Below, piece by piece: positions 27,465 through 51,340 of a stretch of 64,000 nucleotides of DNA. The DNA is from Coptis chinensis (lineage: Eukaryota; Streptophyta; Magnoliopsida; Ranunculales; Ranunculaceae). Position 1 is the stretch's first letter; each line of letters begins with the position of its first letter. The translations under genes were made by a program, and so were the position numbers. The notes under the pieces are model-generated. The model was not told the DNA's origin and ran no database searches. It saw only the letters and a program-made list of their open reading frames with translations. The stretch covers positions 72,755,501-72,819,500 of the forward strand of contig CM027378.1 in the NCBI GenBank assembly GCA_015680905.1, written 5' to 3'.

Positions 27465-28698
27465 CTAGCTAAAATGCACGTGCTCGCACGTGGATGTAAA
27501 ATAAAAGTGTAGATGAATTTTGAGTATTTACAGATATCAAAATAATATAAAAACAACATGCATCAACATTAGGTTACAAATTTTAGGCTTTCATGACTAT
27601 ACAACAGAAGTAAAGCTCAGTACAAAAGTACAAAATTGTTTATACTACTAATTTGTCAGCCTCTTGTAAGGTTTGATATTTTTATCTAAGTTTTTTTTTA
27701 TAACTTAGTTGCCAATGATGGTCCAAAGTTGTTTGCAATACTCACGCAACTTGTTCTTGACCAACCCTGCGTGCCAAAAAAAAAAGGAGTCCAAATTCAA
27801 TCTGATATAAGAAGGAAGAGCATATATAGTACAAAAAAAATATAGAGAAGAGCTTACCAAAAGTGTAATGCAATTAAATTAGTCCGCCTACAGATAAATA
27901 TATAAAACAACCTCATTCATGTCGCCATCCATAATTTTAAACCTTTTAATAATGATTTGTAGCAACTCACCGTATGTAGTGGCATAACTGAAAAAATAAT
28001 AAAATTGTCATTAGCTATAAACTAAACATTGTACATGCCGTCTCGGAAATAAAGCTATGGAAAGAGATTTAGTTTGCAGAAGAAAAACGTAATCAGAGAT
28101 ATCAACACATGATGGTTAAGGATAAAGTGAGAACTTAAATTTTTTGAAAGAACACTACCTAAAAAGAGAAAATTGATATATGAACCGCCAGGAATTTTTG
28201 ACGGTGCAGAGCTTTGTTAGATTGTAACTGTATGTGCATAAATGGTTCTCTTGGTAGACAATACCTGAATATCTTGATCACCTGCATGGTAGTTGAGCCT
28301 TTAAAATTAGCTTGCAAAATACACATATAATATATTCAACCAGCTGGATATTCAAACAATATCAAAATTCATAACATTTTTTCCCTTTTAAACTGATGAT
28401 ACATGAACATGATGATCAGGAGAACTTGATACTTGATATGATCCTCAAGTCACCCTCCCCAAACTAAATTTGAGGACTCAGTTACAAAACCATGTGTTGA
28501 AGGGAATCTAAAGCTCATGGTCTAGACTTGACCAACCAATCCTTTAGAGACTCGTATACAGCAAAGTTGAGGCCAACATACGAGACCTGCAAACACCAAA
28601 ACCAAGTAAATTACACAGGGGACTCTGTATACTTTGGTGAGATGCACAGTAAACATTTTGAGCTCAAAATGTCAACTCTGTTTCTTGCTTAATATAGT
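27465..28698 (-). mobile_element. Non-autonomous Helitron D with a captured carrier exon
   Basis: On the minus strand the 3' end is hairpin CACGTGCGAGCACGTG, then CATTTTAG and CTAG (27468-27465), followed by T. The 5' end is inferred at about 28698 from CTATATTAAGCAAGAAACAG, which resembles the starts of Helitrons A and B. The expected TC now reads AC, so this end is less certain. About 1.2 kb, AT-rich apart from the captured exon at 28515-28586. Confidence 0.65.
28515..28586 (-). pseudogene. Captured exon of a mitochondrial adenine-nucleotide carrier (ADNT1-like)
   Basis: After an acceptor (TTTGCAG) the minus strand reads VSYVGLNFAVYESLKDWLVK SRP and then a stop. This matches the conserved 'PYVGLNFxVYESLKDWL' helix segment of plant ADNT1, a mitochondrial ATP/AMP/ADP carrier of the inner membrane. 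Only this one exon is recognisable; the rest of the gene is absent. It lies inside Helitron D in the element's own orientation, as expected for a captured fragment. Confidence 0.7.
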
Positions 28699-29489
28699 GT
28701 CCAAGGTTGACCACAAGGAATAAATCATGGATCCTGTCACCACAATGGGGAGGTCCAAAATGGGGTGACGAAGAACCTGTCACCACAAGGAACAATAGAT
28801 CTTCTGATCAATGTGTAAGTTTTTTGAGAGGCAAATGTCACAGGGGCTCATCATGCACATACATCCATGATGATTTTATAGCTGATGGCCGTGGAACAGG
28901 TGAAAGGATCCATGAGAGGGACACAGATGTATACTCAGGACATGACCATAGGCGTGACCCACCTAGGAACAACATCACTTTTTGTAAATTTTTTGCTTCT
29001 GGAAATTGCCGTAAGGGGATAAGTTGCAGGTTTTCTCAACCCGAAGGAAGGTTTGCAGACCAGCGGGGCCATAATTTGGGTGATGAGAATAAATCATGGG
29101 GAGGTCCAAAATGGGGTGACGAAGAACCTGTCACCACACGTGGTAATGTAGAAGGAGGTTCACTAGACGGATCTGGCCGTGTCCAGGGTAATGGATGGGG
29201 TGATCATAGGTATAACTATAAACCAGTTGTTTCAACTTGGGATGATGAAGCTGCGAATGACATACTACAAGGAAGGTCTGCAGATGTAAAGAGGCAGAAT
29301 AGTTTCGGTTATGAGAATAAGTCCGGACGAGGTCCGAAAGGGAGTGATGAAGTAGGTGATTCAGCTCATCATACTGTAGGAGGAAGGCCACTGAATGAGT
29401 GGTCTACACGCATTCGAGATAGCGGACCGGATGATCGGTATAAGCATAAACTTTGGAGTCGAGAGAGGAGCATCTGCATTTCCCTTTGA
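28699..29489 (+). pseudogene. CCCH zinc-finger gene fragment, copy 1
   Basis: Fragment of a plant CCCH zinc-finger protein resembling Arabidopsis C3H38 (At3g18640), presumed to bind RNA. It reads from about 28707. Finger 1 is CVSFLRGKCHRGSSCTYIH (C-X7-C-X5-C-X3-H). Finger 2 is CKFFASGNCRKGISCRFSQ, where His has become Gln because of a 21-base in-frame deletion near 29038. A WGGPKWGDEEPVTTR segment occurs twice (about 28747 and 29096). The tail is Gly/Asp/Arg-rich. The frame is open for 260 codons, but the gene's real ends are absent. Two further copies are at 29990-30556 and 45462-46168. Confidence 0.75.
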
Positions 29490-29499
29490 ATATAGCATC

Positions 29500-29989
29500 G
29501 CAACAAACAGTGATTTCTGAGTTTCTTTATTGTGTTTTCGACTTATTATTGGACTTGTGTTTTTGAGTTTCCCCATTTTGTTGTGATGGCTACTACACCG
29601 CACAGTTCGGTGGGGGTGTTAATTGTTCTTGGAGGGGAGTTTCAATGGATAATCGTATTGGTGGTGTTAGTTCAGTGAAAATGTTTGATGAGAGGAATGG
29701 AGTTTTTCGTCACAGTGGACAGTTTAGATGTGTGGCCGGTGGTTTACACAATGTTAAACAATATCACAGTAGTAAAGACTCTTTCTTGAATCTACATCCC
29801 GAAGTCTCGATGCTTAGAGGAAGCGAGGTGAATGACAGTATTATTGGTCTGAGAAAGGAGAGCTCAGCCAGCATTGTCATTGACAACTTAAAAGTATGAG
29901 CCATTGGGTACGTACCAATGTCATTCTTCTTCTGATTCTAGGCTACAGTATCTATTATAAACTTGAAATTTTAAGATGATAATGCTGTT
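29500..29989 (+). other. Spacer with an unassigned open frame
   Basis: Open frame at 29645-29899 (84 codons, MDNRIGGVSSVKMFDERNGV). It is extended upstream in frame by GYYTAQFGGGVNCSWRGVS from about 29590. Composition suggests an exon of the same CCCH-type gene or another captured gene, but I recognise no family. It is followed by AT-rich intron-like DNA up to copy 2. Confidence 0.35.
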
Positions 29990-30556
29990 ATCCATTTTTT
30001 TGCTTCTGGAAATTGCCGTAAGGGGATAAGTTGCAGGTTTTCTCATGAAGGTGAAGTTCTTGATAAACCCGAAGGAAGGTCTGCAGACCAGCGGGGCCAT
30101 AATTTGGGTGATGAGAATAAATCATGGGGAGGTCCAAAATGGGGTGACGAAGAACCTGTCACCACACGTGGTAATGTAGAAGGAAGTTCACTAGACGGAT
30201 CTGGCCGTGTCCAGGGTAATGGATGGGGTGATCAGAGGTATAACTATAAACCAGTTGTTTCGACTTGGGATGATGAAGCTGCGAATGACGTACTACAAGG
30301 AAGGTCTGCAGATGTAAAGAGGCAGAATAGTTTCGGTTATGAGAATAAGTCCGGACGAGGTCCGAAAGGGAGTGATGAAGTAGGTGATTCAGCTCATCAT
30401 ACTGTAGGAGGAATACCACTGAATGAGTGGTCTACACGCATTCGAGATAGCGGACCGGATGATCGGTATAAGCATAAACCCTGCTCAACATTCATATCTC
30501 TCTATAGAGGGTTGTCAGAGCTCGAACGGTTTTATTCACTTCCCGAAGTGAGTTAA
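29990..30556 (+). pseudogene. CCCH zinc-finger gene fragment, copy 2
   Basis: Begins after intron-like DNA with FFASGNCRKGISCRFSHEGE. Here finger 2 keeps its His and the HEGEVLDK stretch that copies 1 and 3 have lost, so it is nearest the ancestral form. It then follows copy 1 almost base for base (GGPKWGDEEPVTTRGNVEG to DRYKHKPCS). It ends ERFYSLPEVS with a stop at about 30556, in sequence that differs from copy 1. There is no start codon of its own. Confidence 0.75.
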
Positions 30557-31282: not shown

Positions 31283-31983
31283 TATGGCAGGATTAGCACC
31301 AGAAGGATCTCAGTTTGATGGTCGTCAGTATGATTCAAAGATGAATGATTTGTATGTTTTACTGGATTTATATATTTGAGCTTTTATTATTAGATGTGGA
31401 ATATGATATTGTAATTTTGGGTTTTTGATTGGATGTGTGTAGACTCACTGCTGATTGGTTTTGATGCAATGAATTTGCAAGAGAACCTTCTCAGGGGAAT
31501 TTATGCTTATGGTAAGTATCAGCTGCGCCTTTCAGTTTTTCATAAGCATGTGAGATATTTTCTTTGGGAGTTTGAGAAATATTCGAATAATATTTTTTAG
31601 CTAGGTACTGGTTGAATTTACAAGGAAAATCGAGTTTGTTGGGTTTTTTGTTGAATAATTATTTGGCGGTATGTGTCTTTGCATAAGTCACCGCTCTCAT
31701 TGTGTTGGATTATCCGTTGTAAATAGGTGTTTTGCATATTTATCGCATCATGAGTAGCTCTTGGTTCTCCTAGAAATAAGAATTCCATGTGATTTATTTT
31801 TCTTTTTGTTTTGTAGGTTTTGAGAAGCCCTCTCGCTATTTGACAAAGGGGATTGTACCCTTCTGCAAGGGGCTTGATGTGATCCAACAAGCACAGTCTG
31901 GAACAGGAAAGACTGCTGCTCCCTCCGCCCTGATAGCATCAAGATGTTTGTACTGGATGAGGCTGATGAAATGCTCTCCAGAG
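31283..31983 (+). pseudogene. Captured eIF4A fragment
   Basis: Pieces of the DEAD-box translation initiation factor eIF4A, with introns. At 31283 MAGLAPEGSQFDGRQYDSKM is the N-terminus; at about 31450-31511 FDAMNLQENLLRGIYAYG ends at a donor. At 31817-31918, after an acceptor, come FEKPS, then [19 protein letters not shown] and TGKTA, which includes motif I (GTGKT). The next 60 bases encode the [17 protein letters not shown] region in another frame, so an internal deletion has joined motif I to the DEAD motif. Too short to be an active helicase. Confidence 0.88.
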
Positions 31984-32131
31984 GTATGTGTTGCATAAGC
32001 TGCCTACTCTCATTGTGTTGGATTATCTGTTGTAAATAGGTGTTTTGCATATTGTACTGCATCATGAGTAGCTCTTGGTTCTCCTAGAAATAAGAATTCC
32101 ATGTGATTTACTTTTCTTTTTGTTTTTGTAG
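31686..32131 (+). repeat. Duplicated intron within the eIF4A-ERF chimera
   Basis: About 31690-31816 and 31995-32131 are near-identical ('ctctcattgtgttggattat', then 'tagctcttggttctcctaga'), each ending in a T-rich tract and TGTAG acceptor. Both exons that follow start GTTTTGA. The second copy now precedes the AP2/ERF exon. Confidence 0.8.
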
Positions 32132-32250
32132 GTTTTGATACATTTGATACAGTTGAAGCAGCTGCGAGAGCTTATGATGAAGCTGCACTCAGGTTCAGAG
32201 GAAGCAGAGCAAAACTAAACTTCCCCGAAAGCTCCCCTTTTGTATCCTAA
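32132..32250 (+). pseudogene. Captured AP2/ERF domain fragment
   Basis: After the duplicated acceptor the frame reads [20 protein letters not shown] and [13 protein letters not shown]. This is the C-terminal half of an AP2/ERF DNA-binding domain (the amphipathic helix with [10 protein letters not shown] and the RAKLNFP end). The N-terminal half with the beta-sheet that contacts DNA is missing, and a stop follows soon after. It sits on the same strand as, and downstream of, the eIF4A exons, apparently as the next exon of a chimeric transcript. Confidence 0.85.
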
Positions 32251-32831: not shown

Positions 32832-33310
32832 AAATTCATATTAATCAGATTGGAATCATTATCCATCACTCATGGATACATTATCCATCACTCAAAAATC
32901 ACTATCAATAACACATGCCATATTAATCAGATTGGAATCATTATCAATAAAGAAGCACACTAAAACAAAAACTTTACACCGTATAAAACACTCAAAGTAG
33001 TAGGATTCTAAATAAACAAAAGAGTTTAACTTATAAATACTAGACAATCAATCAATAACACGTTCAAACAACCTGCAGAGACTTCCATCTCCCATCTTCA
33101 ACACCTAGGTAAACTACTACACTTTCAAAATTACATAAAAATTTATTGTTCTATGAATTCTTGATTATTGCTCTGTTATAAATTTATTGTTATATTTAGT
33201 ACATATATTACTTATCAAAATTGAACTACACCACTATCACATAGATTTGTATCAATCAACATATGTGAGCATGATTTATCATCTTAACACATTAGCATCC
33301 TCAATATACA
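32832..33310 (+). promoter_or_regulatory. Promoter/leader module R1
   Basis: Shares long stretches with R2 and R3: 'aataaagaagcacactaaaa' and 'tataaaacactcaaagtagt', a TATA box TATAAATA (33032-33039), then leader sequence 'cttcaacacctag' and a GT donor near 33110. It is probably the original promoter of the Rep/helicase gene downstream. About 1 kb of other sequence, including repeat D1, now lies between. Confidence 0.6.
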
Positions 33311-33745: not shown

Positions 33746-34275
33746 TTTGAATAAATGATTCAATACAATAGGGGAGGAAAAATTACTGATATCAACTATT
33801 ACAGAAAAGTTGCTGCATTTTTCATAACCGGATAGGGGATTCAAGAAAGCCGATCCCCTTATCTACCGCCTAGATATAAAAGCTTTAGAAAATTTTTAAC
33901 TAGGTATCTCTTGGTCAGGTATGGATGTCTACCTCTCATCAGTTGTTACAGAAATCCAAATCTGGATGAGGGGGCTTCAGTACATAGAAGGTTTCTGTAC
34001 CATCCATGAGGTTCAAAAGTTACGTGGAACTAATGAAAGCCCCTTCCTCTTCCCCATCCACCCCATGCCCTGCCTCCTGCTGTGCTTCTTCCACCTCAAG
34101 ACAAACCTTGAAACGCCCTATTTACGAGCTGGTTCTGTCCACCACCCTCAGGTCGACCTTTTTTGTTGGCGGTATTGTTTGAACCATTTGCGTAGTAGCG
34201 GTTAAGCCGCAGCTCTGCCAAAACACATGTATATTCACCTCGAAGTGGGAACAACAATGTTACCAAAAGACAAGG
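33746..34275 (-). repeat. Duplicated block D1 (captured gene piece)
   Basis: About 90% similar to D2 (44510-45070). On the minus strand an acceptor near 34240 (TTTTGGCAG) opens an exon-like region. Part of it reads GSNNTANKKG followed by Gly/Arg-rich sequence, typical of an RNA-binding tail; no family is certain. Confidence 0.6.
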
Positions 34276-34382
34276 TATATACTACATAGAGGTTCTACTC
34301 TTACCCAGCTTTCCGTGTCTTAACTAAATACAGAGTAAGAAAAAGCCGCTCAAATAATTCAGGCCCCTAGCCACCATCATTT

Positions 34383-37300
34383 ATGAAGTCGTTCAATGAT
34401 GACAATCGGCCGGGCCTCAGATCTAAGAAGAACTGGGACATGTTGTATACGAATGGAACTGTAGTGTACCCTTTTCATTTGAATTATTCAGATATAATTT
34501 CTGGGAATTCATCAAAGGGTGTGTTACGATCACAAAGAAGAGGCCTAGGAAAGCTAATTGTGATGCCATCCAAGAGGGGCGTCCTTTCTATGAGCATGAC
34601 ACTCTTCCTAATCATGCTTCTTTTGCTTACAATGATTATTACCATAAAATGCAAACAATGTAAATACTTTTTTATTATCTTAAAACCTATTTCTCACCAA
34701 CATATACTATTTTTTGTGATGGTAGCACAATGTATGGTCGAGGGGACCTGATACAACCACCGGACATAGCGATGACATTCTACAAAAGCTAATAAAAAAT
34801 ATTTATTGTGGAGGTAAGATCAAGTTTTAACTTTCTATGGTTTTTTCTTTCAACATTTTTTTTCCCACATATCTGACGACAATTTATTTTTTCACATATC
34901 TGACGTATTTTTTTCTATACAGTCCCTGGAGAGAATAATAAGATAGAAAATGCTAGGATTGCTCGCTATAACAGATGGAGAATTTTGGCACGAAAAAGAA
35001 ATAACGGTAGATTTTTTTTACGTAACCATTATTGTTAAATTATTATGTGTTTCCAATAAAAACTAATCTAAATCATTTTCTATTAGTTGATTTAATGCGT
35101 CATAAAAGGATCTCTACATCTAAAAGTAGAACCGCTACGCGTAGACAAGAAGATATGCGAAAGCATAGAAACATTGATAAAGAGCTAAATGCACATATCG
35201 ATAGTAGAGGTAACAATATTATAAGCTAATTGTGAAACCTTTTCTATATTGGTATATATCTGTTAAACTTTTAATATTAAATATTTTAAAGTTTGCTATT
35301 TGTTTTTAGGTGTGCATAACTTTGGACCACCTACTAGAGAGTGTTCTTACTGTGGAGCAATTGTGTGGGAGGGTGAAAGAAACAATAAGGGAAAATCAGC
35401 TTTTCCAATATTTTCCATTTGTTGTCAGAATGGAAAAGTTCAACTACCACTTTTGGAGACGATGCCTACATTTTTAAGATAGCTTATGGACTTACAAGGA
35501 GAAAGAAGATCTTCACATTTTCGAAGGTGTATACGAACATACAACTGCATGTTCCAATTTACTTCTGCAGGTGGAGAAATAGACAAAACATTAAACAATG
35601 GTGGGGGGCCTTATGCCTTCAGAATTAGCGGCCAGAATCATCATAAAATTGGTTCACTTCTACCAATTGAAAACCACCCACCTAAGTTTGCTCAATTATA
35701 TATCTATGACACTGAGAATGAAAGATGCAATAGAATGAAAGCTATACCTCCAGACGAAGAAATGCAGATCCAACAATTGTTGACGGGTTGATACAAATGT
35801 TTGATAAATACAATAAAGTTGTACAGTCATTTAGAATGGCAAGAGACAGATTTAAAGAGGATGATATGGTACCAGTTTGTCTAAGACTTATTAATAATCG
35901 ACAAAGTGATGGCAGGCAATATAATTTGCCTACTTCAACTGAAGTAGCGACTTTGATTATGGGAGATGGATTTGATGTTACTAATTATAGAGATATAATT
36001 GTTGAAACACAAGGTGGTGGACTTGAAAGAATAAATGAGTTACATCCCAAATTTATGGCCTTGTAGTATCCTATATTATTCCCACGTGGTGAAGATGGTT
36101 ATAGACCAGGGATCCTATATAGGAGTCAAAGTCAAAGTGAAACTGAAGGGAATACAAGGAATACGGATACGAAAACAAGGAATATGGTTACCATGAGGGA
36201 ATATTATGCATTCAGATTGCAAAAAAGAATTAAAGAAGGTCCTACATTGTGGATTGGTGGGCGTTTTCGTCTATCCTTCATCGTAGACGGTTATACAAGT
36301 ATGGAAGATCAACGTCTACATTGGTACCGTATGAACCAAGCAACAATCAGATCTGAATTGTACAGTAATTTGATGGATGCAGTAACAACAGGTATTATAG
36401 TAAGAACAAATAAATAGCATTTACCTTAATTTAAAACATTATAAAATTTTACCTAACTTCACTTCGAATTGCAGGTGATACGTCGGCAACATCAATTGGG
36501 AAGCGTTTGATCTTCCATCATCGTTTACAGGAGGTCCCAGATACATGGTGCAGACATATTAGGATGCCATTGCCATTTGTAGATGGGCTGGGCCACCTGA
36601 TCTTTTTATAACAGTCACTTGCAATCCAAATTGGGATGAAATTAAAAGCTTTCTAGAACTAAACCTTGGCCTAAATCCGCATGACGTTCCAGACGTTGGT
36701 TGTAGAGCATTCAAGTTAAAATTGGAGTGTATACTGAAAAAATTGCGCAAAGGAGAACATTTTGGCAGAGTAATTGCAGGTATGTAATCAAACAATGTAA
36801 CCATAGTAATGTCTAAGAAAGTATGCCTGTTTAGATCAGCTCATATTACTTGGATAGATTTTGTATAACTTATTTTGAAAGTTGGCGTAGTCCTGAACAA
36901 AAAAGTAATCATGAATGATATGTTTATAAAAAAAAATCTATGTTTATTACTATAGAACTTATAAATATTGCATAACAAATTCCATGTTTTTGTTTTTGCT
37001 ACATAACCATTGTTTACTAACAAATTCTATGTTTTATTCTCTTGTTAGTATTGTATGTCATAGAATTTCAAAATAGAGGATTGCCACATGCCCACATTTT
37101 GCTTTTTCTACATCCGGATGACAAGCCAAAAAACGGAATGGATATAGACAAACTAATATCAGCAGAATTGCCAGACAAAGAAGCAGACCCCTTGCTATAT
37201 GAAACTATAGTCCGTACAATGATTCATGGACCGTGTGGAAACAAGAAAAAGGGTTCTTCGTGCATGAATGATAAGAAAAAATGTTCAAGACATTATCCAA

Positions 37301-40051
37301 AGGGGTTTTGCAGTGAAACAACATTTGATGAAAAAGGTTTTGTTGTGTATCGAAGGAGAAACAACAAGCGAACTGCCATGGTAGGTGATAAAAACCCTGT
37401 TGAAATCGACAATGGATGGGTTGTTCCTTACAACCCAGCGCTTAGCAAAGAATTTCAGTGCCACATCAACGTTGAATATTGCAACCGCACACGAATGGTT
37501 AAATATCTGTTTAAGTATATAGCAAAAGGACAAGATAGGGCATCTGAAGAAAATTTGGCATCATTGAAGAAAATTTATAAATATGATGAGGATAAAAGAA
37601 AAACTATTCATGAAGTTGATGAAATCAAGCACTATCTAGACTGTCGTTATGTGTCTGGTTCAGAAGGAAGCTGGAGAATCTTCAAATTTGACATTCAATT
37701 CCGATATCCATCTGTTGAAAGGGTGAGTTTCCATCTTGAGAATGATCAAAATATTATATTTCATGATAATGAAGATACCTTTGAAATTGTTGAAAAAGAC
37801 AAATCAAAGAGGACTATGTTCACAGAGTGGATGCGCACTAATCAAGTTAATGAGAAAGGAAGACATTTGACGTATGTTGACTTTACATTATTATTTGTGT
37901 GGCACAAAGATGATAAAGTTTGTACAAAACTGTTTTTTAGCTTCTAAAATAGTTTTTTTTTTTTTATATTTGAACTATATTTTAAGCCTGATTTATTACA
38001 ATCTGTTACTTTCTACAGGTCTGGACAGAAAGAGAACAGGGACTAAAAATTGGTAGAATATACTATGCACATCCAACACAAGGTGAAAGATTTTACATTC
38101 GTATGCTTCTAAATATAGTCAAAGGTGCCAAAAGTTTTGAAGACATTAGAACAGTGAATGGCATAACTCATCCAGATTACAAATCAGCATGTAGTGCACT
38201 AGGCCTACTACAAGATGACAGTGAATGGCATAAAGCAATTCAAGATGCGGAAAAGTGGTCTAATAGTAACTCATTGCGACAATTGTTTGTGACGCTTCTA
38301 TTATTCTATGAGGTATCAAATTCAGTTGAATTGTGGAATAAAAATTGGGAGCTACTTTCAGACGATATACTTGGATTACAACAAGTAAAGCAAGGTAATG
38401 ATAACCTAACCTTATCTCAAGAAGAGCTGAAAAAATTTACACTTCGTGAAGTTGAGATTCTAATGAATGAAAGCGGCCGAACTCTAAAAGAATTTAGTTT
38501 TGATATTCCAAAACCAAATGCACTTGATAACAGACTGATACAAGAGGAGTTAAATTATGATTGTGCTACTTTTTCCACACAATTTGAGCAGCTTCATCTT
38601 GGATTGAATGTTGAACAGAGAGAAGTTTTTAATGTTGTCATTAATGCAGTTCAGGAAAATACTGGAGGTCTTTACTTTGTATATGGAAGTGGTGGTACAG
38701 GAAAGACTTATCTATGGAATACACTAATTGCAAGGCTGCGGTCACAAAGGAAGATAGTACTTGTTGTGGCTTCATCAGGTGTAGCAGCACTTCTTTTACC
38801 AGGTGGACGGACTGCTCACTCAAGGTTTAAAATTCCAATTGAACAAGATCACTTCAACACTTGCAATATTAGTAGAAACACCCACTTGGCATATTTGATT
38901 CACAAAACTGATCTAATCATATGGGATGAAGCACCAATGAGTAAAAAAAATGACTTTGAAGCTATTGATGCCACTTTCAGAGACATAATGTCAGAGACTG
39001 ATATAAGATTAAAGGACAAACCATTTGGAGGGAAAACAATGGTTTTTGGAGGTGACTTCAGACAAACATTGCCTGTTGTAGAGAAAGGATCAAGAGAAAC
39101 AATTGTGTCTACTTCAATTAACAGGTCGTATTTATGGCGCCACTTTAGGATTTTTCGACTTACCATAAATATGCGTTTGCGTAACAAAGACTCTAGCAAA
39201 TCAGATGCTGAATTCAACAAATGGATACTGGATATTGGTGATGGGAAACTTCCAAGTCGATCATTGTGTGAAGGAGAAGAACCTAGCCGAAAGTGAAAAT
39301 CCCAAAAGACCTTATAATTCATTCAACAGAGCGGTATAAATGAAATTGTGGAAACTATCTACCAGATTTTCCAAAAAAATATTCGAAGCTTGGTACTTGA
39401 GAGATAGGTGCATTCTAACTCCTACAAATGAATCACCGTGAAATAAATTCATATGTTCTCTCTTTTGTTCCAGCTAAACACATGAGTTCTTAAGTCTGGA
39501 ACCGTTATGTGCAGATCTTTGGGATTGGAAATCAACACATTTTGTATCCGATTGAATTCCTAAACACTTTACACTGGTAGGTATATGGCCAATCATTCTT
39601 TACAACTAAAAGAAGGTGCTCCTATAATGTTTCTCAGAAACATAAACCAAAGCAAGGGACTATGCAACGGAACAAGACTTATTATCACTACATTGTCAGA
39701 TATTGTGCTTGAAGCTATGATCATTACTGGAAGTAACATAGGAGATCGACACACCATCCCTCGAATTGTGATGAAGTCTGATAAAAAAAATGGCCTTTTG
39801 TATTGCGACGTGTACAGTACCCAATAAAGCTTTGTTATTGCATGACAATTAACAAAAGCCAGGGACAGACGCTGACAAGTGTTGGAGTTTACCTAAGAAA
39901 TCAGGTATTCTCACACGGACAACTATATGTGGTTGTTTCGCGTGTAACTTCACGTGAAGGACTGAAGATATTATTGGACAATAGAGACGGTGATTTGTAC
40001 GAACATACAAAAAACATAGTCTATCCAGAAGTATTCAACAATCTCCCATGA
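34383..40051 (+). pseudogene. Helitron replicase-helicase (Rep/PIF1), decayed
   Basis: The transposase of plant Helitrons nicks and rolls DNA with an HUH Rep domain and unwinds it with a PIF1 helicase. Upstream exons lie at 34383-35225. The N-terminal Cys motif is FGPPTRECSYCGAIVWEGER (about 35320). Helitron-like N domain fragments lie at 35486-36779. The Rep core (exon about 37047-37917) has the HUH motif GLPHAHILLF (about 37078) and both tyrosines in KYLFKYIAKG (37501-37530). An intron is followed by an exon from 38019 with Walker A GSGGTGKT (about 38687) and Walker B IIWDEAPM. The C-terminal helicase motifs lie at 39585-40051 (YCMTINKSQGQTL). Stops or frame changes occur at 35482, 35788, 36066, 39296, near 39480 and at 39827, so it is inactive although the catalytic residues remain. 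Confidence 0.92.
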
Positions 40052-41279: not shown

Positions 41280-41640
41280 CACTAAAGAGTCCCAGCCACC
41301 TAAATTTATTATTTGGATAAACCAAAAAAAAAAATCACCATCAATAACCCACGCCCAAAACTAAGGCTGGATTAAATTTATTATTTGGATAAACTAAAAA
41401 AGAGATCAACATCAATAACCCACGCCAAAAAATTAATAAACACAGAATTATGATTAGATCCAATCCTATAACCAATAAAGAAGTACACTAAAACAATAAC
41501 TTTACACTGTATAAAACACTCAAAGTAGTAGTTATAAATATATCTATCAATCTTCATAATCAAGCAAAGAAAACAAAAATCTCAACTCAATACAACATCT
41601 CGGCCTCCATCAAGGTAATATTCAATTCATATATATTATA
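41280..41640 (+). promoter_or_regulatory. Promoter/leader module R2
   Basis: Same module as R1/R3: 'ccacctaaatttattatttg' (twice, once altered), 'aataaagaagtacactaaaa', 'tataaaacactcaaagtagt' and TATA box TATAAATA (41533-41540). A GT donor follows near 41614. It lies 150 bp before the RPA-like start codon, so it is the likely promoter of that gene. Confidence 0.65.
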
Positions 41641-41789
41641 TAATTTTTAGACAAAAAAATTTATTGATTCAACTACATATGCAATGGTTATGTAAATGTG
41701 TATAGAATAATTTATTTATCCTTCACTATAACTGTTGACGTGTTTCCAATATTCTAATCTTCTATACAATTTGTGACAAGGTTACAAAC

Positions 41790-42481
41790 ATGACAATTCA
41801 GTACCATATGTTGAACACCATCAACCGTTCAAAAACTGCTTGGAAATTAAAAGTTAGGGTCGTGCGAAAGTGGGATGATCTTTATTCTAAAAACCTAGCT
41901 ATCAAACACAGAGAAGTCCTTCTTATTGACGAACAGGTATGTGCTTAATTAGTACTAGATTTACTATTTATTGTTTAATTGTTGTTTATAAAAAATTTAT
42001 ATTCTATGTATTATACAGGGCAACCAAATTCAAGCTAAATATGGGGTGAAATTAACAAAGAAGTTTGAAAAGCATATGCAACCAGATGCACTATTACTTA
42101 TTGAAAATTTTGACACATTGGTGACAATTCACCTAAATACCGTGTTGTACCGCATGATTACAAACTCGAGTTGAATGACACTACTATAATCAAAGTTGTC
42201 ACCAATCACGATGTGCAGATTCCTCAAAACCTATTTTCATTCATTTCTTTAAATGATATTGACTCAAACAAGGACAACATAGTCCTTATAGGTAATACGT
42301 TACATTAATCCTATAGATTTTTTTTAACCAAAACAACTACGACAATAACTTTGTATACAATGCAGATGTCGTAGGACTACTACTGAAGGTTAAGGCAGTT
42401 GAAACATCAACCATAAGAGGAGGCAATACAAGGAAAAGACGAGATATAATCATACACAGCATTATAACAAATATTATATAT

Positions 42482-42529
<48 letters not shown>

Positions 42530-43990
42530 AATATTATATATATATATATATATATTATGTTTCATAAGTTCAATTTTATTTTTATTTACACAGATTCTTA
42601 CTCTTCATACTATCAATGTAGAAACACTGTACTTAGAATCACATTGTGGGGTAGTGCAATGGATCAAATTCCAACTGACTTCATTCATTCACCGGACAAA
42701 AATTATGTGTTAATAGTAACATCAACTTCAGTACAGAACTGGAAAGGTAATCATCTTCTTCTTTGTTTTCAAAATACTATTTCTTTGCATTCATGATAGT
42801 TAACTTTACCAAAATCACAGGATATTTTCTCCAATCAACATTTGGAACAAAAATATATACAAACTTGCAAATACCTGAAGTTGAATCAATCATGGAAAGG
42901 TAACAAAATTTCATATTAATTGTATTCAATTTATTTGATTTTCTTTTTCTAAAAGTAATAACAATTTCCAAACATGCAGAGCTTAACAAAAAAAAGAAGA
43001 AGCAAGAAGAAAAAAAAACGATTTAGAACAAATAAAAACAGGGGACGAGATACAGAGCTTAACTGACATCATAAATCAAGATAACCCTGTAAAGGTAACA
43101 ACAACTACTTATCATCCTTCTCTAAACAATTTATATCATATAATATTGTTAATACAATTTATTTTGATTTTTCATAAACAGGAAAAGTCGTTCCTGTGCA
43201 GAGCAAAGATTTCTAAGATTTTAAATGACGACATATTACCATAGTATTATAAAGCTTGCGAAAATTGCGTCAGTAAGCTTGAAGAAATCAACTCCAGGCT
43301 TTGGTGCGATAGATGTGAAAAATATTCAAAACATTCCAAAAGGTATGACTATGTACGAAAACTATAAAACATGTCTATTCTAATCAATTAGGTGCTATTT
43401 TTTTTTATTATTATTTTTATTATTTTTTTTTTCTAATTTTTCACTTTTGAAATATAGGTACAAATTAAAACTCGAGATCACAGATGATGAAAGTTACACA
43501 ACCACAATTGCATTTGGAAATATAGGAAAAGTCATGATCAAACATTCGGAAGATGAACTCTACAAAATTGAAAAACAGGTAAAAACATCTTTAATTAAAA
43601 CAATATATTGCAATTCTTTAAACAAACCACTAATAATTTCTTTTTTGAATTATTTTAGAAAAATGGAAAAGAAATGGTTGAGAAGATATTGAAAAGCATT
43701 GTTGGAAAAAAATTTGATTTTCGCATGAAAGAATCCAATAACAGCAACAATTATAACACAAAATCGTTTGTTCTTTTGTACGCATGTCCTGTGAGCAATG
43801 ATGAAGAGGTATGTATATACATTAAATGTCGTTTCAGAATTTATACATATGATTATTACATATAACTATATACACAGTTGGAACATTTTCTATTAATACA
43901 GAAACAAACTTCGAGAGATAGCTGCTATTGAAAAACCAACAATGGAAAACCGAAAAAATCTATGACAGAACCTCCAGAAGAAACCCCTTA
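41790..43990 (+). pseudogene. Helitron-borne RPA70-like single-strand DNA-binding protein
   Basis: Intron-rich gene for a replication protein A large-subunit-like protein, a known passenger of plant Helitrons, presumed to bind single-stranded DNA during rolling-circle movement. Exon 1 (41790-41936) is MTIQYHMLNTINRSKTAWKL, then VRVVRKWDDLY (OB fold). The next exon starts at about 42020 and has a frame change near 42120. Further OB-fold pieces lie at about 42367 and 42594 (TVLRITLWGSAMDQIP). The C-terminal zinc ribbon is at about 43250-43345 (YYKACENC, then LWCDRCEKYSKHSKR), continuing YKLKLEITDDE at 43459 and an exon near 43660. At least one stop lies before the ribbon. Start chosen as the first ATG after the R2 leader. 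Confidence 0.82.
42487..42556. repeat. (TA)n microsatellite in an RPA-like intron
   Basis: Alternating AT runs at 42487-42527 and about 42536-42556. Confidence 0.9.
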
Positions 43991-44374
43991 TCCAAAAAAG
44001 TCTACAAGACTTTAGATCTCAAGGTAACCATTTATATATATTAAATGTCTTAGTAAATTTAATCTTTCAAAATAAAACAAATGGAAATCTAATTACTTTT
44101 TCTGTATTATTTTTCAACAGGACAATCACTTGGAATGAAGATAGTTTCTACTCAAAGGAGTATAATTCAATAGTTTAGTGGACATTAAGAATTAGTTATC
44201 ATTGGATCATGAATTAGTTATCATTGGATCATAAGCTACAATTTATTATTGTGTTTGTGTTGTTCATGCATGATGAACAAAAATAGGAATTCATTTTGAA
44301 TGGATAATAAGTTATGCTACAATTTATTAGTCGATGTGCATTGGAATTGCTAATATTTTTTGTCAAGTACTCAC

Positions 44375-44437
44375 CTGAACCTGTCCTTGGATGTGGCGTA
44401 CAACATCTTCGCTCGGATCCAAGAGGTTGCAGGAGAC
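44375..44437 (-). pseudogene. Isolated captured exon, gene not identified
   Basis: Between a CAG acceptor and a GTGAGT donor the minus strand encodes 21 codons, VSCNLLDPSEDVVRHIQGQV and Q, in phase 0. Clean splice signals on both sides suggest a captured exon. I cannot name the parent gene. Confidence 0.45.
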
Positions 44438-44509
44438 CTGAAGTGCGAAAAACACACTTTAAAGACATTCAACATGCTAACTAAATAGACAAATTTTCAA
44501 CCAAACAAG

Positions 44510-45080
44510 ACTACATTCCGAAGTGAATAAATGATTCGATACAAGAGGGGAGGAAAAATTACTGATATCAACTATTACAAAAAGTTGCTGCATCTTTCAT
44601 AACCGGATAGGGGATTCAAGAAAGCCGATCCCCTTATCTACCGCATAGATAGACAAGCTTTAGAAATTTTTTAACTAGGTATCTCTTGGTCAGGTATGGA
44701 TGTCTGCCTCTCATCAGTTGTTACAGAAATCCAAATCTGGATGAGGGGGCTTCAGTACATAGAAGGTTTCTGTACCGTCCATGAGGTTCAAAAGTTACGT
44801 GGAAGCCCCTTCCTCTTCCCCGTCCACCCCATGCCCTGCCTCCTGCTGTGCTTCTTCCACCTCAAGACAAACCTTGAAACGCCCTATTTATTTAGGTGGT
44901 TCATCCACCACCCTCAGTCGACCTTTTTTGTTGGCGGTATTGTTTGAACCATTTGCAGTAGTAGCAGTTCGCTTCGCTCTGCAAAACACATGTATATTCA
45001 CCTCAGAAGTGGGAACAACAATGTTACCAAAAGACAAATGTAAGGAAAAGTATAATGAATTGCCTTTATGCTGTAGATAA
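44510..45080 (-). repeat. Duplicated block D2
   Basis: Second copy of D1 (33746-34275), from 'gtgaataaatgattc' to the exon-like minus-strand stretch with a TTTTGCAG acceptor near 44990. Small indels distinguish the copies. It lies just upstream of CCCH copy 3. Confidence 0.7.
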
Positions 45081-45461
45081 ATGCTCCAGATGTTGCAGAA
45101 ATCTTGAACCAGATCTTCGTGCCACTGCATAGATTGAAGGTAGAAGAAAACACAGATACTTAAGATAGTCTATACCCTATGATTGCGACTCGAATATGTT
45201 TGATTATGTCCAGCTAGCCGAGTTACCGATATAACTGCGAAGGGAATGGGATAATAGAATCAAAGGTGGATCAGGGATTTCAGCTCCCCTGTGCAATGAT
45301 TTTGCAGTGGGGAGATGCAGCGAGGCGATGAGTGCATGTTTCTTCATCAAGAGAACAATGAATCTGGGGCGAAGGAATCCGGTGGTGTCCCAAGAGAGAA
45401 TTGGAGAAGTAGACATGAGAGGGAGGATCTTATGGGCATCTTAATAATGTAGAGCGGGATT
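45081..45461. other. Spacer, probably the 5' part of the CCCH-gene capture
   Basis: No clear frame. 'RRNPVVSQERIGEVDMRGRI' can be read near 45372-45430, leading toward the CCCH region, so it may be an upstream exon of the same captured gene. Confidence 0.35.
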
Positions 45462-46290
45462 ACTCAAGAGATAAGCTTTCTCACGAACAAGAGTCCCAAA
45501 GGAACAATAGATCTTCCGATCGGTGTGTAAGTTTTTGAGAGGCAAATGTCACGAGGGGCTCATCATGCACATACATCCATGATGATTCTATAGCTGATGG
45601 CGTGGAGCAGTGAAAGGATCCATGAGAGGGACACAGATGTATACTCGGGGCGTGACCATAAAGTGACCCACCAGGGAACAACATCACTCTTTGTAAATTT
45701 TTGCTTCCGAAATTGCCGTAAGGGGATAAGTTGCAGGTTTTCTCAACCCGAAGGAAGGTCTGCAGAACCGGTGGGGGCCATAATTTGGGTGATGAGAATA
45801 AATCATGGGGAGGTCCAAAATGGGGTGACGAAGAACCTGTCACCACACGTGGTAATGTAGAAGGAAGTTCACTAGACGGATCTGGCCGTGTCCAGGGTAA
45901 TGGATGGGGTGATAAGAGGTATAACTATAAACCAGTTGTTTCGACTTGGGATGATGAAGCTGCGAATGACGTACTACAAGGAAGGTCTGCAGATGTAAAG
46001 AGGCAGAATAGTTTCGGTTATGAGAATAAGTCCGGACGAGGTCCGAAAGGGAGTGATGAAGTAGGTGATTCAGCTCATCATACTGTAGGAGGAAGGCCAC
46101 TGAATGAGTGTTCTACACGCATTCGAGATAGCGGACCGGATGATCGGTATAAGCATAAACCCTGCTAGAGCTGAGAGAGGAGCATCTGCATTTCCCTTTG
46201 AATATAGCATCGCAACAAACAGTGATTTCCTGATCCAGTTTTTCGACCAGATTAGGAACATCTTATGGTTACTCATTTTAATTTTACTTT
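45462..46290 (+). pseudogene. CCCH zinc-finger gene fragment, copy 3
   Basis: DYSRDKLSHEQESQRNNRSS and DRCV lead into a damaged finger 1 near 45530. Finger 2 region CRKGISCRFSQPEGR (45718-45760) shows the same 21-base deletion as copy 1. From 45780 to 46165 it matches copies 1 and 2 closely, then ends at a stop after YKHKPC (46166-46168). Small indels break the N-terminal half into several frames. More decayed than copy 1, so the three copies have separate histories after duplication. Confidence 0.75.
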
Positions 46291-47470
46291 AGCAAAATCA
46301 TATTCTTATTTAGGATTAATTAAGGGAGATAAGCTAGAGGACTACATCGTTATGATTATCGTTATGATTCTTGATTAGAGTTACTATGATGCTTTACATG
46401 CATGAACTATTGAAAGCCTCATGAAATTCCAAAACTACGTAGCAAACAACACAAAAATGCAATATTTACGTCTCTTTACCTTCCTTCCCTTAACATCTTC
46501 TATATAAAGCAAAAGCTTCCCCACTCATTGTGTTGTTCCTTATCCGTTGGCGGTGAATTCCTATGTCCTTTTCGATGGTTGAATAACACTTCGCACTTTT
46601 GCAGTTAGTGTTAGCGAAGTAGAAGCTTTGTTTGAAACGTACAAGAGCATTAGCTGCATTACATCATTGATGATGGGCTAATTAGCAAGGTATTTCTAAA
46701 TATGCTATTGTGAATACAGTTTTGCACCTTTTTTTTCCCCTAAGGCTAATGTTGTTTGCGTTGTTATGGCTTTTGAGTAGTATCTCATTAATTTTACTTT
46801 TTGATGAATTAGTTATGAAGCGTTTTTTAATCAATTTTCTGATAATAAATTGTTGCATATGATATTCATTGCTTGCTCCCTCCATACAAAGTAATCGTCC
46901 AAAAACCAGGTCCTCAAAGAAAATATATTCAGATTCTATAAAATTTGGTAATAAAGGATGTTAAGATCCTCGCTTAATCCTCCTCTTTTTCACAGCTATT
47001 TTGGATCCACCTATAAAGTACTGAATGAGCTTAAATATAGAAACCATAGGCATACCAAATTTCACAAACTTCCATGACCATTTTTCTAATCGAAAACAAA
47101 TTTCAAAGAACAACAATGTTTTTCTCTTTCCTCTTTTTTTAACACATACTTGACACTGAGAGATGCAGAGAATTGTCCATACATGTCACAACACATGATG
47201 TACACCATTCCAAAGGTCCTTTGCATCTGTAATCCTCCTTCGAAGGTAATGTAGAATTGAAAATTTGAAAAATGAAATTATAAAACTTCATCAGACTACA
47301 TGTAACAGGTGATACTACTATCAAGCACACTCCAATTACCTGTAAAAGCGGTTCGCGGATGTATGATAGTGATGTTACAATAGAGGGTTCATGAATATTT
47401 TGACAGTGAAGCTAGGATTTAGGAAGTGAATATTTTGTTCCAAGCAAGTGAATTTCTTCTTTGCAGTAGT
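46291..47470. other. Non-coding DNA, no feature recognised
   Basis: AT-rich, with no credible gene, terminus or repeat apart from a TCTATATAAAGC TATA-like site near 46500. Confidence 0.5.
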
Positions 47471-47760
47471 GTTACTAACATGGACTATTGTAGTGTCCAT
47501 GATCGCAAAAGCACGACCATTGGCCTCGGTTCAACTCTAAGCGCTTTCGACTAGAACTTCGAGGAACAAAACCCGGTGTTGGAAATCTTTAATGGAGCTT
47601 CGCAAGCATGCACGGGTGAGGTAGTTCTGTTTTTTCGAATGGTGAAACATACTTAGGACCAAGTTTCTTTGTCGAGCCATTCTCGGTCATTGAGCACAAA
47701 TCTTTGGGTTCTGAGACAAGGAAAGCTCTCTACTCGAGACTATTTGCGACTCCACATGGA
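47471..47760 (+). pseudogene. EC1-like (prolamin-like) secreted-protein fragment
   Basis: 47471-47539 reads LLTWTIVVSMIAKARPLASV, like the end of a signal peptide. Other frames downstream give TRCWKSLMEL (about 47568), ACTGEVVLFF (about 47610) and NGETYLGPSFF (about 47645). These match the order of the plant egg-cell-secreted EC1/prolamin-like domain (CWxALxELxxC, EVVLFFLNGxTYLGPxCC). Stops and frame changes separate them, so it is a dead copy, possibly captured by the Helitron. Confidence 0.55.
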
Positions 47761-48297
47761 TAAACCAAAAAAAAAAAAATTAACATCATTAAAAGTTCAA
47801 GCCACCTAAATTTATTACCATCAATAACCCACGCCCAAAAGTTCAAGCCACCTAAATTTATTATTTGGATAAACCATAACCAATAAAGAAGCACACTAAA
47901 ACAATAACTTTACATTGTATAAAACACTCAAAGTTGTAGTATTCTAAATAAACAAAATAGTTTAACTTATAAATACTAGAGAATCAATCAATAACACATT
48001 CAAACAACCTGTAGACTTCCATCTCCCATCTTCAACACCTAGGTAAACTACTAAACTTTCAAAGTTACATATAAATTTATTGTTCTATGAATTCTTGATT
48101 ATTGCTCTGTTATAAATTTATTGTTATATTTAGTACATATATCACTTAACTGAATTGAACTACACCACTATCACATAAATTGGTATCAATCATCATATGT
48201 GAGCATGATTTATCATCTTAACACATTAGCTACATTCAAATTTGTAACTTATTCATAAGATAACATACTAATTTTTTTAAAACTTATATGCAGCAAT
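47761..48297 (+). promoter_or_regulatory. Promoter/leader module R3
   Basis: Third copy of the module: 'ccacctaaatttattatttg', 'aataaagaagcacactaaaa', 'tataaaacactcaaagttgt', TATA box TATAAATA (47968-47975), leader 'cttcaacacctag' with a GT donor near 48041, and an acceptor ATATGCAG at about 48294. It therefore contains a leader intron that ends four bases before the start codon of the dsRBD-like gene. Confidence 0.7.
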
Positions 48298-48894
48298 ATG
48301 GATCATAATACAATCTTTTCTATTTCAAGGAAAGCAATATTGATTCAAATCCTGATGGAAATCAATATTTATAAACCACCGGTTTACACAACAAAAGTGA
48401 AGGGTGACAAATTTGGATCAACCGTAACAATATATGTTCCTATTCTGAAAGGAATATTTAAAGAAGACCGTGACAAATATGATGAAGATGAAGATTCAAC
48501 CCTGCAAACATCCTATGGAACTCTTGAAGAAACACAGAATAAAGCCGAGAATGAAGCTGCACAAGCAGCTCTCACATCACTATGTCAATGGTACAAATTC
48601 CAAGTCAAAGATTTCAACTTCACAGAACTTAAAGAAGCAAGGAGCGAAATCAATCATCTACGTCAGATTCATGAAGAAGCTACAAAGGAAATCAAACATC
48701 TTCAAGAATCCAATGAACACTTTCATGAAATAAATCAAGGCCTACATGTTGATATCATGCACATTGGACAAGAAAATAGAGAATTGCGAACAACACTTGT
48801 TAATGTTGAAACAGAAAACAGAGAATTGCGAACATCAATTACTAATGTTGAAACAATCAACATAAGTGATGATGAAGACAAACAAATTAAATAG
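48298..48894 (+). CDS. Putative double-stranded-RNA-binding / coiled-coil protein carried by Helitron E
   Basis: Intact 198-codon ORF, ATG at 48298, TAG at 48892-48894. Residues about 15-95 fit a dsRBD: ILIQILMEINIYKPPVYTTK (helix 1 and strand 1), then FGSTVTIYVPI (strand 2), a long acidic loop (about residues 56-70), and TSYGTLEETQNKAENEAAQA ALTSL (the K-A-x-x-x-A-A-x-x-A-L helix). Residues about 110-190 are a heptad-like, charged coiled coil with two similar ENRELRT units. The start follows a probable leader-intron acceptor of module R3, which resembles the promoters of the Rep and RPA-like genes. It is the only unbroken gene in Helitron E. The assignment rests on pattern only; a host dsRBD gene captured by the element is the alternative. 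Confidence 0.6.
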   Translation: MDHNTIFSISRKAILIQILMEINIYKPPVYTTKVKGDKFGSTVTIYVPILKGIFKEDRDKYDEDEDSTLQTSYGTLEETQNKAENEAAQAALTSLCQWYKFQVKDFNFTELKEARSEINHLRQIHEEATKEIKHLQESNEHFHEINQGLHVDIMHIGQENRELRTTLVNVETENRELRTSITNVETINISDDEDKQIK

Positions 48895-49741
48895 ACGCGA
48901 CAACTGGTGAAGATTTTGACATAATCAACATTAGAGATGATGAATAGAATAGAGTTACATGGAATTATTAGTTATTTAAAGAGTTATCATTATGCCAAGT
49001 TTTATTAGGAATGTTCATGCATTTTAATTTGTTTAGAAGTTTTAGAAACTTCGATTAGTAACTATATGACTACTTATTGCCTTGATTTTGAATGAGCTTC
49101 AATGCATAGGGCTTTTAAATATGCACCACAGTATGCCACACAACTAGCGGCAAATTCCATCCTTAAATCCTTTGAAGGGGTCGCTTCCATTTTCGCATGT
49201 GAATACACGTGTTTCTATTCTCATCTGCGAGTGCATGTTGTTGAAAGGTTTTGTGATCTCGCAACATCTCTCTACAGTTGTACGCATATCAAGTATCTGG
49301 GAATTCTTAAACTCACTCATTCTTGCAGATCTGCATTTCTATATATGCAACGTCTCTTCCTCTATTTGATAGTTTCTCATACTATTTTGAATAAATATAC
49401 GATTCAATTTGTGTGGTTACCCTGCGATAAATTGGTGGCTTTGGCATTTCAAGATTTTCTAGGAAACTTTAGGATCAAGAATGATGGCATAACCACCACT
49501 TTAGACTTTATAGTTCTTTTATGTAATTTCTACGTCTCATATATGTTTTGAAGAAGGTGTATGCATCAGTTGTATTTCTTTTCATTTCAATGTATCAGAT
49601 AGGTTCTATAAGCCATAGGAAAGTACTATATTATGTCACACGTATCAAACTAAAAACAGCCCACTTTAAAATGGACCAGGCCAGTTTAGTAGTTGACTCT
49701 AAGAATTTTGTAAAGCTCAAACGTTTTAAACATAACAACGA
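48895..49741. other. 3' flank of the dsRBD-like gene inside Helitron E
   Basis: AT-rich. Long frames at 49102-49551 look accidental (no domain, biased to hydrophobic residues). Leads to the Helitron terminus. Confidence 0.5.
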
Positions 49742-49775
49742 AACAATCCCGGCCATGGGCCGGGCGAAATGCTAG
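49742..49775 (+). other. Helitron E 3' terminus (hairpin plus CTAG)
   Basis: Hairpin CCCGGCCATGGGCCGGG, then CGAAATG and CTAG (49772-49775), followed by T. This is the Helitron end recognised as the rolling-circle stop. The palindrome is of the same CCGGCCAT.GGCCGG type as Helitron A's end. Confidence 0.88.
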
Positions 49776-49943
49776 TATCTATTATTACACAGAAAACTGA
49801 CGAAGTTGGGGACAACCCTAATGATTTTGAAAATATGGGGTTTCACAAAAAACCAGGTAGTGGGGTGGTTAAGTAAAAAAAACCCAAACTAGAAACACAT
49901 CTCACAAAAATAGGAATGCCCAAAATGGTTTGGTCTATTTCCT

Positions 49944-51340
49944 CTAGGTTTCAACTTCAAATCTTCGAAAAGCAATGAAAAACGAGTGACCTTGATCACG
50001 TTGAATTCTGACTTTGTCTCCCTTCTTGAGTTTATTGCGCACTGCATACTGAGCCCAATCTCCCCGAAAAACATAAGTCAATATGTTTGATTTGCTTTTT
50101 TTGTAACAATACATAAATTTGTAGATTTGCCCTTGTTCATCTAAAATTGAAAGTTCGATTCCATCATCTGAAACAAGTGGAAAAAGTTTCCGTAGCGGAC
50201 TTGGTTGTGGAATCAATAAACATGCTTTGGCTCCATTGCCACAGTCGCTTTTGGTAAGAAAATTTTCAAGGACGACTCCTCTGAAGAAATTAAAACAATC
50301 AAAATAACGTTAGAAGTTTATAGACAACAAAACTTTCTTTTTCTTTCTCTTCGTGGTTATAAACAACAAAAATCATTATAATAGTGGAAAATATAATACA
50401 ATTAGGTCGATTCCGGTTCTACCTTGTCAGCTTCACCTATTTGCTGCTTTAACAAAAATTTCAAAAATTGTTGGACATCATCCTTATCTGCATCTGTTGA
50501 AAAAATCAATTTAGTTCATTAAAATTGAACGTGTTGTAGTAGTGTAATACAATAAGAGCCTAAGGGGTCGTTTGTTTTTCTGAGCCTATGAATGCTGAAT
50601 GCTGAATGGCTCATTCTCTGAATGCTAAATGCTGATTGCTGAATTCTAAAAAACTTGTTTGTTTTCTGCTAGAATAACTTGGCTCTGAAGGCTGAATATA
50701 AATCATTCGGACAATTTTACTCATGCTATCTATTTTAAACACTAACTTGATTTCTTGTTAAAGAAAATATATATTATATTTGAGGAGAAGAGATGGATTA
50801 TCGAAAAAAATAAATGATAAATAAATTTATTTAAAATATGTTTTCACAAATATATTTTAACGGTTTATTTTTATATTTTGTTTATTTTCAGAATATATAT
50901 ATGTAATTCTATTTTTAACAAAGTGGATATTATTCACCCAAAAAAATGAAAAAACCTATGACGCCAACATCAAATTTTGAAGAACCTATTTTGAAGCTAT
51001 AAAAGTCAAGGTAGGAAAGTTAGATGGGTTATTGAGATTGGGTTCTTAAGAAAGGGCAAGAAGGGACTTTCTTGTTTCAAGTATTAGAATTCAGCATTCA
51101 GAAGAAATTTTAGTGCTGAATGTGAATGCTAAAAGTACCACTTAATGCTTAAACTACTTAAAAAAAAAAAAAACAAGTTTTGAGCCTCTGCTTAAAACTT
51201 AAGTTTAAGAAACTCTGAATGCTTAATTCAAAAAAAACAAATAACCCAAGAGTAGTTGATGTTAAGTACTTACCAAACAGATTCGCGGGAATAGAAGGAA
51301 GATTGGTCTCTTTCGGAAAGATATTTGCCGTGTCAACCAT
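49944..51340 (-). CDS. B3-domain DNA-binding protein gene (three exons visible)
   Basis: Minus-strand gene with a plant B3 domain. Exon 1 (51340 to about 51275) encodes MVDTANIFPKETNLPSIPAN and LF, ending at a GTAAGT donor. Exon 2 (about 50496-50424) encodes DADKDDVQQFLKFLLKQQIG. Exon 3 (about 50281-49944) carries the B3 domain: VVLENFLTKSDCGNGAKACL, then FPLVSDDGIELSILDEQGQI, WAQYAVRNKLKKGDKVRIQR and FFIAFRRFEVET before the stop. The order of strands and the GDxVxxxR motif fit B3. The exon 2/3 phase does not join cleanly by eye, so the true splice sites or a small defect remain open. A MITE occupies intron 1. Confidence 0.65.
50565..51247. mobile_element. MITE with GGGTCGTTTGTTT ends (PIF/Harbinger-like)
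   Basis: Left end GGGTCGTTTGTTTTTC and right end (reverse complement) GGGTTATTTGTTTTTTTT are inverted. Both are followed by related 'gaatgct/gcattcag' sequence. Flanked by AAG at 50562-50564 and 51248-51250, a 3-bp target duplication as in PIF/Harbinger elements (which usually use TWA). It has no coding capacity and lies in the B3 gene intron. Confidence 0.7.

Follow-up and report, generated by a model that had tools for sequence, protein, structure and literature searches.

Plant Helitrons carry genes for a Rep/helicase and for RPA-like proteins (PMC4683698), and the extra domains described for Helitrons or Helentrons comprise RPA, an OTU-like peptidase and an AP-endonuclease (PMC6431247). 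Anti-silencing functions encoded by a transposon are also found in plants, in the form of VANC (PMC10398659). As far as the available parts of these and the other sources cited here go, a gene combining a likeness to the double-stranded-RNA-binding domain (dsRBD) with a coiled coil is mentioned in neither PMC4683698 nor PMC6431247, and the main text of PMC4683698 is free of the terms "coiled", "OTU" and "RNA-binding". A literature search by title and beginning of abstract, mostly outside subscription journals, retrieved no report of a dsRBD gene in a Helitron. Here we describe such a candidate in Coptis chinensis, in a stretch of 64,000 nucleotides (assembly GCA_015680905.1, contig CM027378.1, positions 72,755,501 to 72,819,500, forward strand; hereafter the window), where a broken Helitron with Rep/helicase and RPA-like genes is accompanied by an intact open reading frame (ORF) for a protein with a putative dsRBD-type domain followed by a coiled coil.

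An intact gene in a broken Helitron

The ORF at 48298-48894 on the forward strand is a real coding gene. As the initial annotation had proposed, it is unbroken, running from ATG to TAG through 198 codons with no internal stop, and the motifs PPVYTTKV, FGSTVTIYV and KAENEAAQAAL quoted there are all found in its protein. In order-2 Markov simulations of the stretch 44000-50000, which as training material included the ORF itself, the longest ATG frame on either strand reached at least 198 amino acids in only 1 of 300 runs. Guanine is distributed over the three codon positions with clear asymmetry (0.30, 0.09 and 0.10), and a codon model trained on the helicase of the same Helitron scored the frame at 0.208 per codon, as compared with -0.092 to 0.083 for the five other frames and 0.143 for the best of 124 windows in the joined flanks. 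With the same model, the captured zinc-finger frame 45722-46165 scored 0.153 and the frame 49102-49548 scored -0.081. The window holds ten ATG frames of at least 198 codons, of which this is the shortest. The description of the ORF as the only unbroken gene of the tract held for whole genes but not for open frames as such, as open stretches of 308 and 434 codons persist in the broken Rep/helicase and one of 263 in a captured fragment.

The setting of the gene is that of a plant Helitron, with a Rep/helicase matching both Helitron_like_N and PIF1, an RPA-like gene, and a 3' end formed by a hairpin and CTAG (of the CTRR type) before T, which agrees with the setting described earlier. Family matches of the Rep/helicase reached E-values of 8.5e-8 and 4.7e-18 for Helitron_like_N, 1.4e-19 for Pif1_2B and 8e-92 for PIF1. 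It is interrupted by single stops at 35480 and 36064, which stand between open stretches of one frame and are taken to lie outside introns, and its end shifts frame where 39564-39824 (Pif1_2B) overlaps 39785-40048 (helicase families below cut-off). The RPA-like gene matches DUF223 above the cut-off (4.1e-6) and REPA_OB_2 and Rep_fac-A_C below it, and shows one apparent frame change and one apparent stop when the sequence is read by eye without a reference protein. The contrast of dead partner genes with a live one was therefore recovered, the breakage of the RPA-like gene being a reading by eye. The 3' end at 49775 lies 881 bases downstream of the ORF; its hairpin folds at -8.9 kcal/mol, a value equalled or bettered in 6 of 200 shuffles. 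A scan of the window for such 3' ends returned five candidates, two of them on the forward strand (27214 and 49775), and within its thresholds no other forward-strand 3' end lies between the RPA-like gene and 49775. Minus-strand ends of the Helitron type, each with a hairpin and CTAG, were seen at 27465 (-) and 10799 (-). Just past the Helitron end, the open frame 49947-50309 (-) encodes a B3 DNA-binding domain above the cut-off (E 8.9e-8). Gene content of this kind points to a plant host.

The best argument for a gene owned by the element is the upstream region that the ORF has in common with the RPA-like gene. The two blocks (Table 1) align over 135 columns at 83% identity (blastn, E 4e-29), and a gapped alignment of both upstream regions extends into the 5' untranslated region (5'UTR), with 176 of 215 aligned bases identical and a score of 215, the maximum over 200 shuffles being 128. 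By eye, TATA-like boxes and a GT donor stand near the same place in both. The predicted 5'UTR intron at 48043-48293 takes in, and would remove, all four ATGs that precede the ORF from 47950 onward. Because of the RPA-type upstream block and this predicted intron, the ORF seems to be a gene of the element and not a captured fragment; an upstream block of the RPA type would be surprising in a fragment captured at random. Both features are new relative to the initial annotation, and the gene is real and probably element-owned. A unit of about 60 bp is present in two copies (90%) at 41285-41431, before the RPA-like gene, and is related to 47814-47879 before the ORF.

A dsRBD-like domain followed by a coiled coil

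The C-terminal half of the protein is well supported as a coiled coil, in line with what had been annotated. Hydrophobic residues of the stretch 108-190 favour two positions of the heptad (6 and 9, as against 0-3 in the others), and the structure model places one helix over 108-197, in which the mean predicted local distance difference test (pLDDT) score of 10-residue blocks is above 90 over 121-180. A 42-bp tandem duplication in this region adds 14 amino acids, that is two heptads, and so keeps the register.

For the N-terminal part, comparisons at the level of sequence lend moderate support to a dsRBD-type fold. The N-terminal fragment matches Pfam PF00035 (dsrm) at 13.2 bits, the gathering cut-off of the family being 23 bits, with an E-value of 0.14 that is tied with that of another family; the match covers model positions 3-66 of 66, nearly the full length, in the right order. 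With a hidden Markov model (HMM) built from seven plant dsRBD sequences, the fragment scored 8.4 bits, above all 2000 shuffles (1481 scored; best 5.9), and the ORF ranked first among 251 frames of the window (6.9 vs 2.1 bits), the part scored being the alpha2 helix only. Summed pairwise scores against the seven plant dsRBDs gave z = 8.0, with none of 1000 shuffles as high; since these references are mutually related, all such z values are inflated. With beta1-beta2 masked the value was 5.4 (0 of 1000 shuffles as high) and with the alpha2 motif masked 2.8 (8 of 1000). Relative to plant DRB domains, about 17 extra columns, partly acidic, lie between beta2 and beta3. Both structure predictions were made from the single sequence, with mean pLDDT of 61.0 and 46.8, and the first model, of low confidence, has helices at 11-21 and 76-102 and strands at 30-33 and 42-45.

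Several other identities were considered for the protein and set aside. Axonemal dynein, the top match of a phmmer search of the PDB (E 0.002, residues 49-149), straddles both halves and was judged a match of helical composition, as were two haemagglutinin HA2 entries (residues 97-194). Two of the families standing above dsrm in the Pfam scan of the whole protein, Hepar_II_III_N (0.016) and XH (0.062), were regarded as coiled-coil matches, the latter covering residues 78-171 at 13.7 bits under a cut-off of 22.2. XH proteins have a role in plant RNA-directed DNA methylation, so that the XH match stays of interest. The identity of a second RPA-like gene was discarded, as the 11 Pfam matches include neither an RPA nor an OB family, and NCBIfam gave four weak matches far under their cut-offs (best E 0.0027, 17.4 vs 65 bits).

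Plant dsrm domains are reported to owe their affinity to a beta1-beta2 loop histidine and to a basic start of the alpha2 helix (PMC5435087). In the alignment the protein has KGDKFG at the loop and ETQNK at the start of alpha2, and no histidine occurs between residues 4 and 118. The residues for high affinity are missing; therefore weak binding of dsRNA would be expected from one domain, and strong binding by a single domain is not expected from the sequence. The coiled coil could offset a low affinity by pairing two domains. Real dsRNA binding by the protein, on which the silencing idea of the initial annotation had rested, is so far not supported, as the published affinity sites are missing, and the same holds for interference with silencing.

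Duplicated blocks and the question of selection

The features of the tract are collected in Table 1. Its three pairs of duplicated blocks, each 93-95% identical (blastn), would fit two head-to-tail copies of one element, with the ORF lost from the left copy. The upstream region of the ORF was duplicated along with the element (32936-33296 and 47872-48230), which counts in favour of a gene of the element. In the left zinc-finger copies, zf_CCCH_4 was matched at 7.1e-9 in 28698-29486 and below the cut-off in 29975-30553, and one such copy is the source of the 263-codon open frame; in the right-hand frame 45722-46165 the Pfam scan found no zinc-finger family. The stretch 31668-32250 contains short pieces, none reaching the cut-off, that resemble an AP2 domain (E 0.0004) and, at E 0.019 and 0.045, a DEAD-box helicase, together with a direct repeat of 159 columns in two copies (91%) at 31668-31823 and 31983-32138.

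Table 1. Coordinates of the gene, the Helitron and the duplicated blocks within the window
Feature	Position	Strand	Basis or remark
Rep/PIF1-type helicase gene, broken, approximate limits	34371..40049	+	Helitron_like_N, Pif1_2B and PIF1 matches in several frames
Matching block before RPA-like gene	41410..41540	+	blastn
RPA-like gene in pieces, approximate limits by eye	41789..44200	+	DUF223 above cut-off
Block after RPA-like gene, also just before Rep gene (33748-34273), 93%	44524..45037	+	blastn
Captured CCCH zinc-finger gene fragment	45499..46229	+	Also at 28787-29517 and, partly, 29997-30485
Promoter-like block with TATA-like sequence	47819..47950	+	83% identical to block before RPA-like gene; putative promoter function
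Second copy of the upstream region of the ORF, 93%	32936..33296	+	blastn, vs 47872-48230
Predicted 5'UTR intron (CACCTAG^GTAAAC ... ATATGCAG^CAAT)	48043..48293	+	Sequence; putative splice use
Intact ORF P0001, 198 amino acids, dsRBD-like N-terminal part and C-terminal coiled coil	48298..48894	+	Open frame, coding signature
dsRBD-like region, residues 9-100	48322..48597	+	Subthreshold Pfam dsrm, alignment, shuffles
Coiled coil, residues 108-190	48619..48867	+	Heptad count; helix in model
42-bp tandem duplication in coiled coil, 2 copies, 88% matches	48771..48855	+	Tandem Repeats Finder
Helitron-type 3' end, a GC-rich hairpin of 7 bp followed after 7 bases by CTAG and T	49748..49775	+	Hairpin/CTAG scan

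The initial annotation had raised the possibility that the ORF is kept by selection, as it stands intact beside dead genes. Neutral rates were taken from the three duplicated blocks (66 substitutions and 20 indel events over 1593 aligned bases), with half of the changes attributed to either of the two branches. Blocks 45499-46229 and 44524-45037 differ from their left partners by 44 substitutions and 19 indel events, 14 of them of one base, in 1234 aligned bases, and the promoter block differs from its copy by 22 substitutions and 1 indel in 359; the frequent one-base indels in the former two could reflect decay or assembly error. Under the three-block rates the neutral odds of survival of the ORF are roughly 0.02, and under those of the nearest (promoter) block alone about 0.2. 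Because the same three-block rates give an open helicase stretch of the broken gene a survival of 5e-7, the uniform-rate model is unreliable and no conclusion is drawn from it. Intactness is thus weak evidence of selection, which does not follow from neutral odds of 0.02 to about 0.2 in a tract where other open stretches survive.

Weighing the alternatives

We place about even weight on the reading of the ORF as an accessory gene of the Helitron, with an RPA-type promoter, a spliced 5'UTR, and a divergent, dimerising dsRBD-type product that would function through paired domains or through host DCL/DRB proteins. A number of observations weigh against it. The dsrm score of the whole protein is 11.2 bits, seventh of 11 weak families, and both this and the 13.2 bits of the fragment lie far under the cut-off; 4 of 9 shuffled fragments matched other families at comparable values (E 0.056-0.26), though none matched dsrm. 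None of the four PDB matches returned by phmmer up to E 10 is a dsRBD. The second structure model consists of helices with no strand, the N-terminal pLDDT is low in both models, and Foldseek with both low-confidence models gave no match at E <= 0.001 and no dsRBD among the matches listed (best 50 of 57 for one, 1 of 1 for the other), results that were regarded as uninformative. Both kinds of RNA-contact residue, the beta1-beta2 histidine and the basic start of alpha2, are missing from the alignment. Behind the second upstream copy at 32936-33296 tblastn found no trace of the ORF, and no second copy rises above noise within the window, so that a single copy is known. The strict motif scan for a Helitron 5' end (TC after A) produced no candidate. 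Searches for relatives covered viral contigs, plasmids and the 64-kb window, plant genomes being outside these collections; 26 pattern matches in viral contigs yielded no confirmed relative, and plasmids none at E 0.01. The annotated dsRBD pattern of the first 95 residues is plausible, with moderate support from the near full-length order of the dsrm match and from the comparisons with shuffles, and fails at the family cut-off.

These points bear differently on the competing explanations. The ORF may be all or part of a DRB-like host gene that was captured by the Helitron and is still open by chance, with no function for the element. Capture of gene pieces by Helitrons is well known (PMC13317346, PMC6431247), captured host fragments (the zinc-finger gene and others) are present in this very tract, and the 263 open codons of one of them indicate that openness is not special. 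The captured fragments of the tract are, however, pieces, whereas the ORF has a start, a stop, a plausible 5'UTR intron and the RPA-type upstream region, and the capture of full-length genes is described as exceptionally rare (PMC6431247); we hold chance capture to be somewhat doubtful. A different explanation accepts the gene as real and as the element's own, but sees in the N-terminal part an unrelated small domain of a coiled-coil protein. It agrees with the subthreshold database matches and the poor structure predictions, and an Ala/Glu-rich helix such as KAENEAAQAAL can mimic alpha2, masking of which brings z from 8.0 down to 2.8. As the dsrm match spans nearly the whole model in the right order and the fragment outscores 992 of 1000 shuffles even with alpha2 masked, this explanation appears unlikely.

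A stronger functional claim would have the protein itself bind dsRNA or small-RNA duplexes and, as viral suppressors do, shield its element from RNA silencing. The dsRBD likeness, the probably dimerising coiled coil and the precedent of VANC as a transposon-encoded anti-silencing factor of plants (PMC10398659) speak for it; the residues for high affinity in plant dsRBDs are missing, though, and with its Rep/helicase broken this copy is not autonomous, so that we consider direct shielding distinctly improbable. Suppression of silencing by the ORF protein is a possible hypothesis.

In the accessory-gene reading, the ORF would belong to an RPA-carrying plant Helitron, its transcription would start from a duplicate of the promoter region that precedes the RPA-like gene, and its 5'UTR would be spliced. 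In its product, an alpha-beta domain of divergent dsRBD type would be joined to a long coiled coil, through which dimers would probably form. A single domain would bind dsRNA weakly, and the protein may then function through two domains paired by the coiled coil or through contact with host DCL/DRB proteins, possibly as a decoy or adaptor during expression of the element. In its widest form, the proposal would be of a branch of plant Helitrons with a third gene of its own, whose dimerising dsRBD-type product, under an RPA-type promoter, binds or diverts the machinery by which the host processes dsRNA, as a counter-defence against small RNAs; this wider form we regard as rather improbable. Recurrence of the gene in Helitrons would make it a type of accessory gene for which the literature search found no report in this group, it would suggest that rolling-circle transposons encode anti-silencing tools as viruses and VANDAL elements do, and the spread of Helitrons despite small-RNA control would become testable. 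Without recurrence, it would still be unusual for a Helitron to carry a nearly complete gene together with upstream sequence of the element's own type.

Comparison with known systems

In its overall design the element resembles the RPA-carrying plant Helitrons, for example those of rice, in as much of them as the available part of PMC4683698 describes, having the same Rep/PIF1 helicase, RPA-like gene, and hairpin and CTAG end followed by T. It differs from them in the additional intact dsRBD-like, coiled-coil gene with its RPA-type upstream region. The protein has the same succession as the plant DRB proteins (HYL1/DRB1, DRB2, DRB3 and DRB4; PDB 3adg, 9jvc, 9jmt and 2n3f) of a P-x-Y motif at beta1 and an AE-x-x-AA-x-x-A motif at alpha2. 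Unlike them, it has a single domain, an added coiled coil and the longer beta2-beta3 segment, and is devoid of the beta1-beta2 histidine and the basic start of alpha2. The VANC proteins of VANDAL transposons (Mutator-like elements, MULE) offer a parallel, by analogy only, as accessory-gene products of plant DNA transposons.
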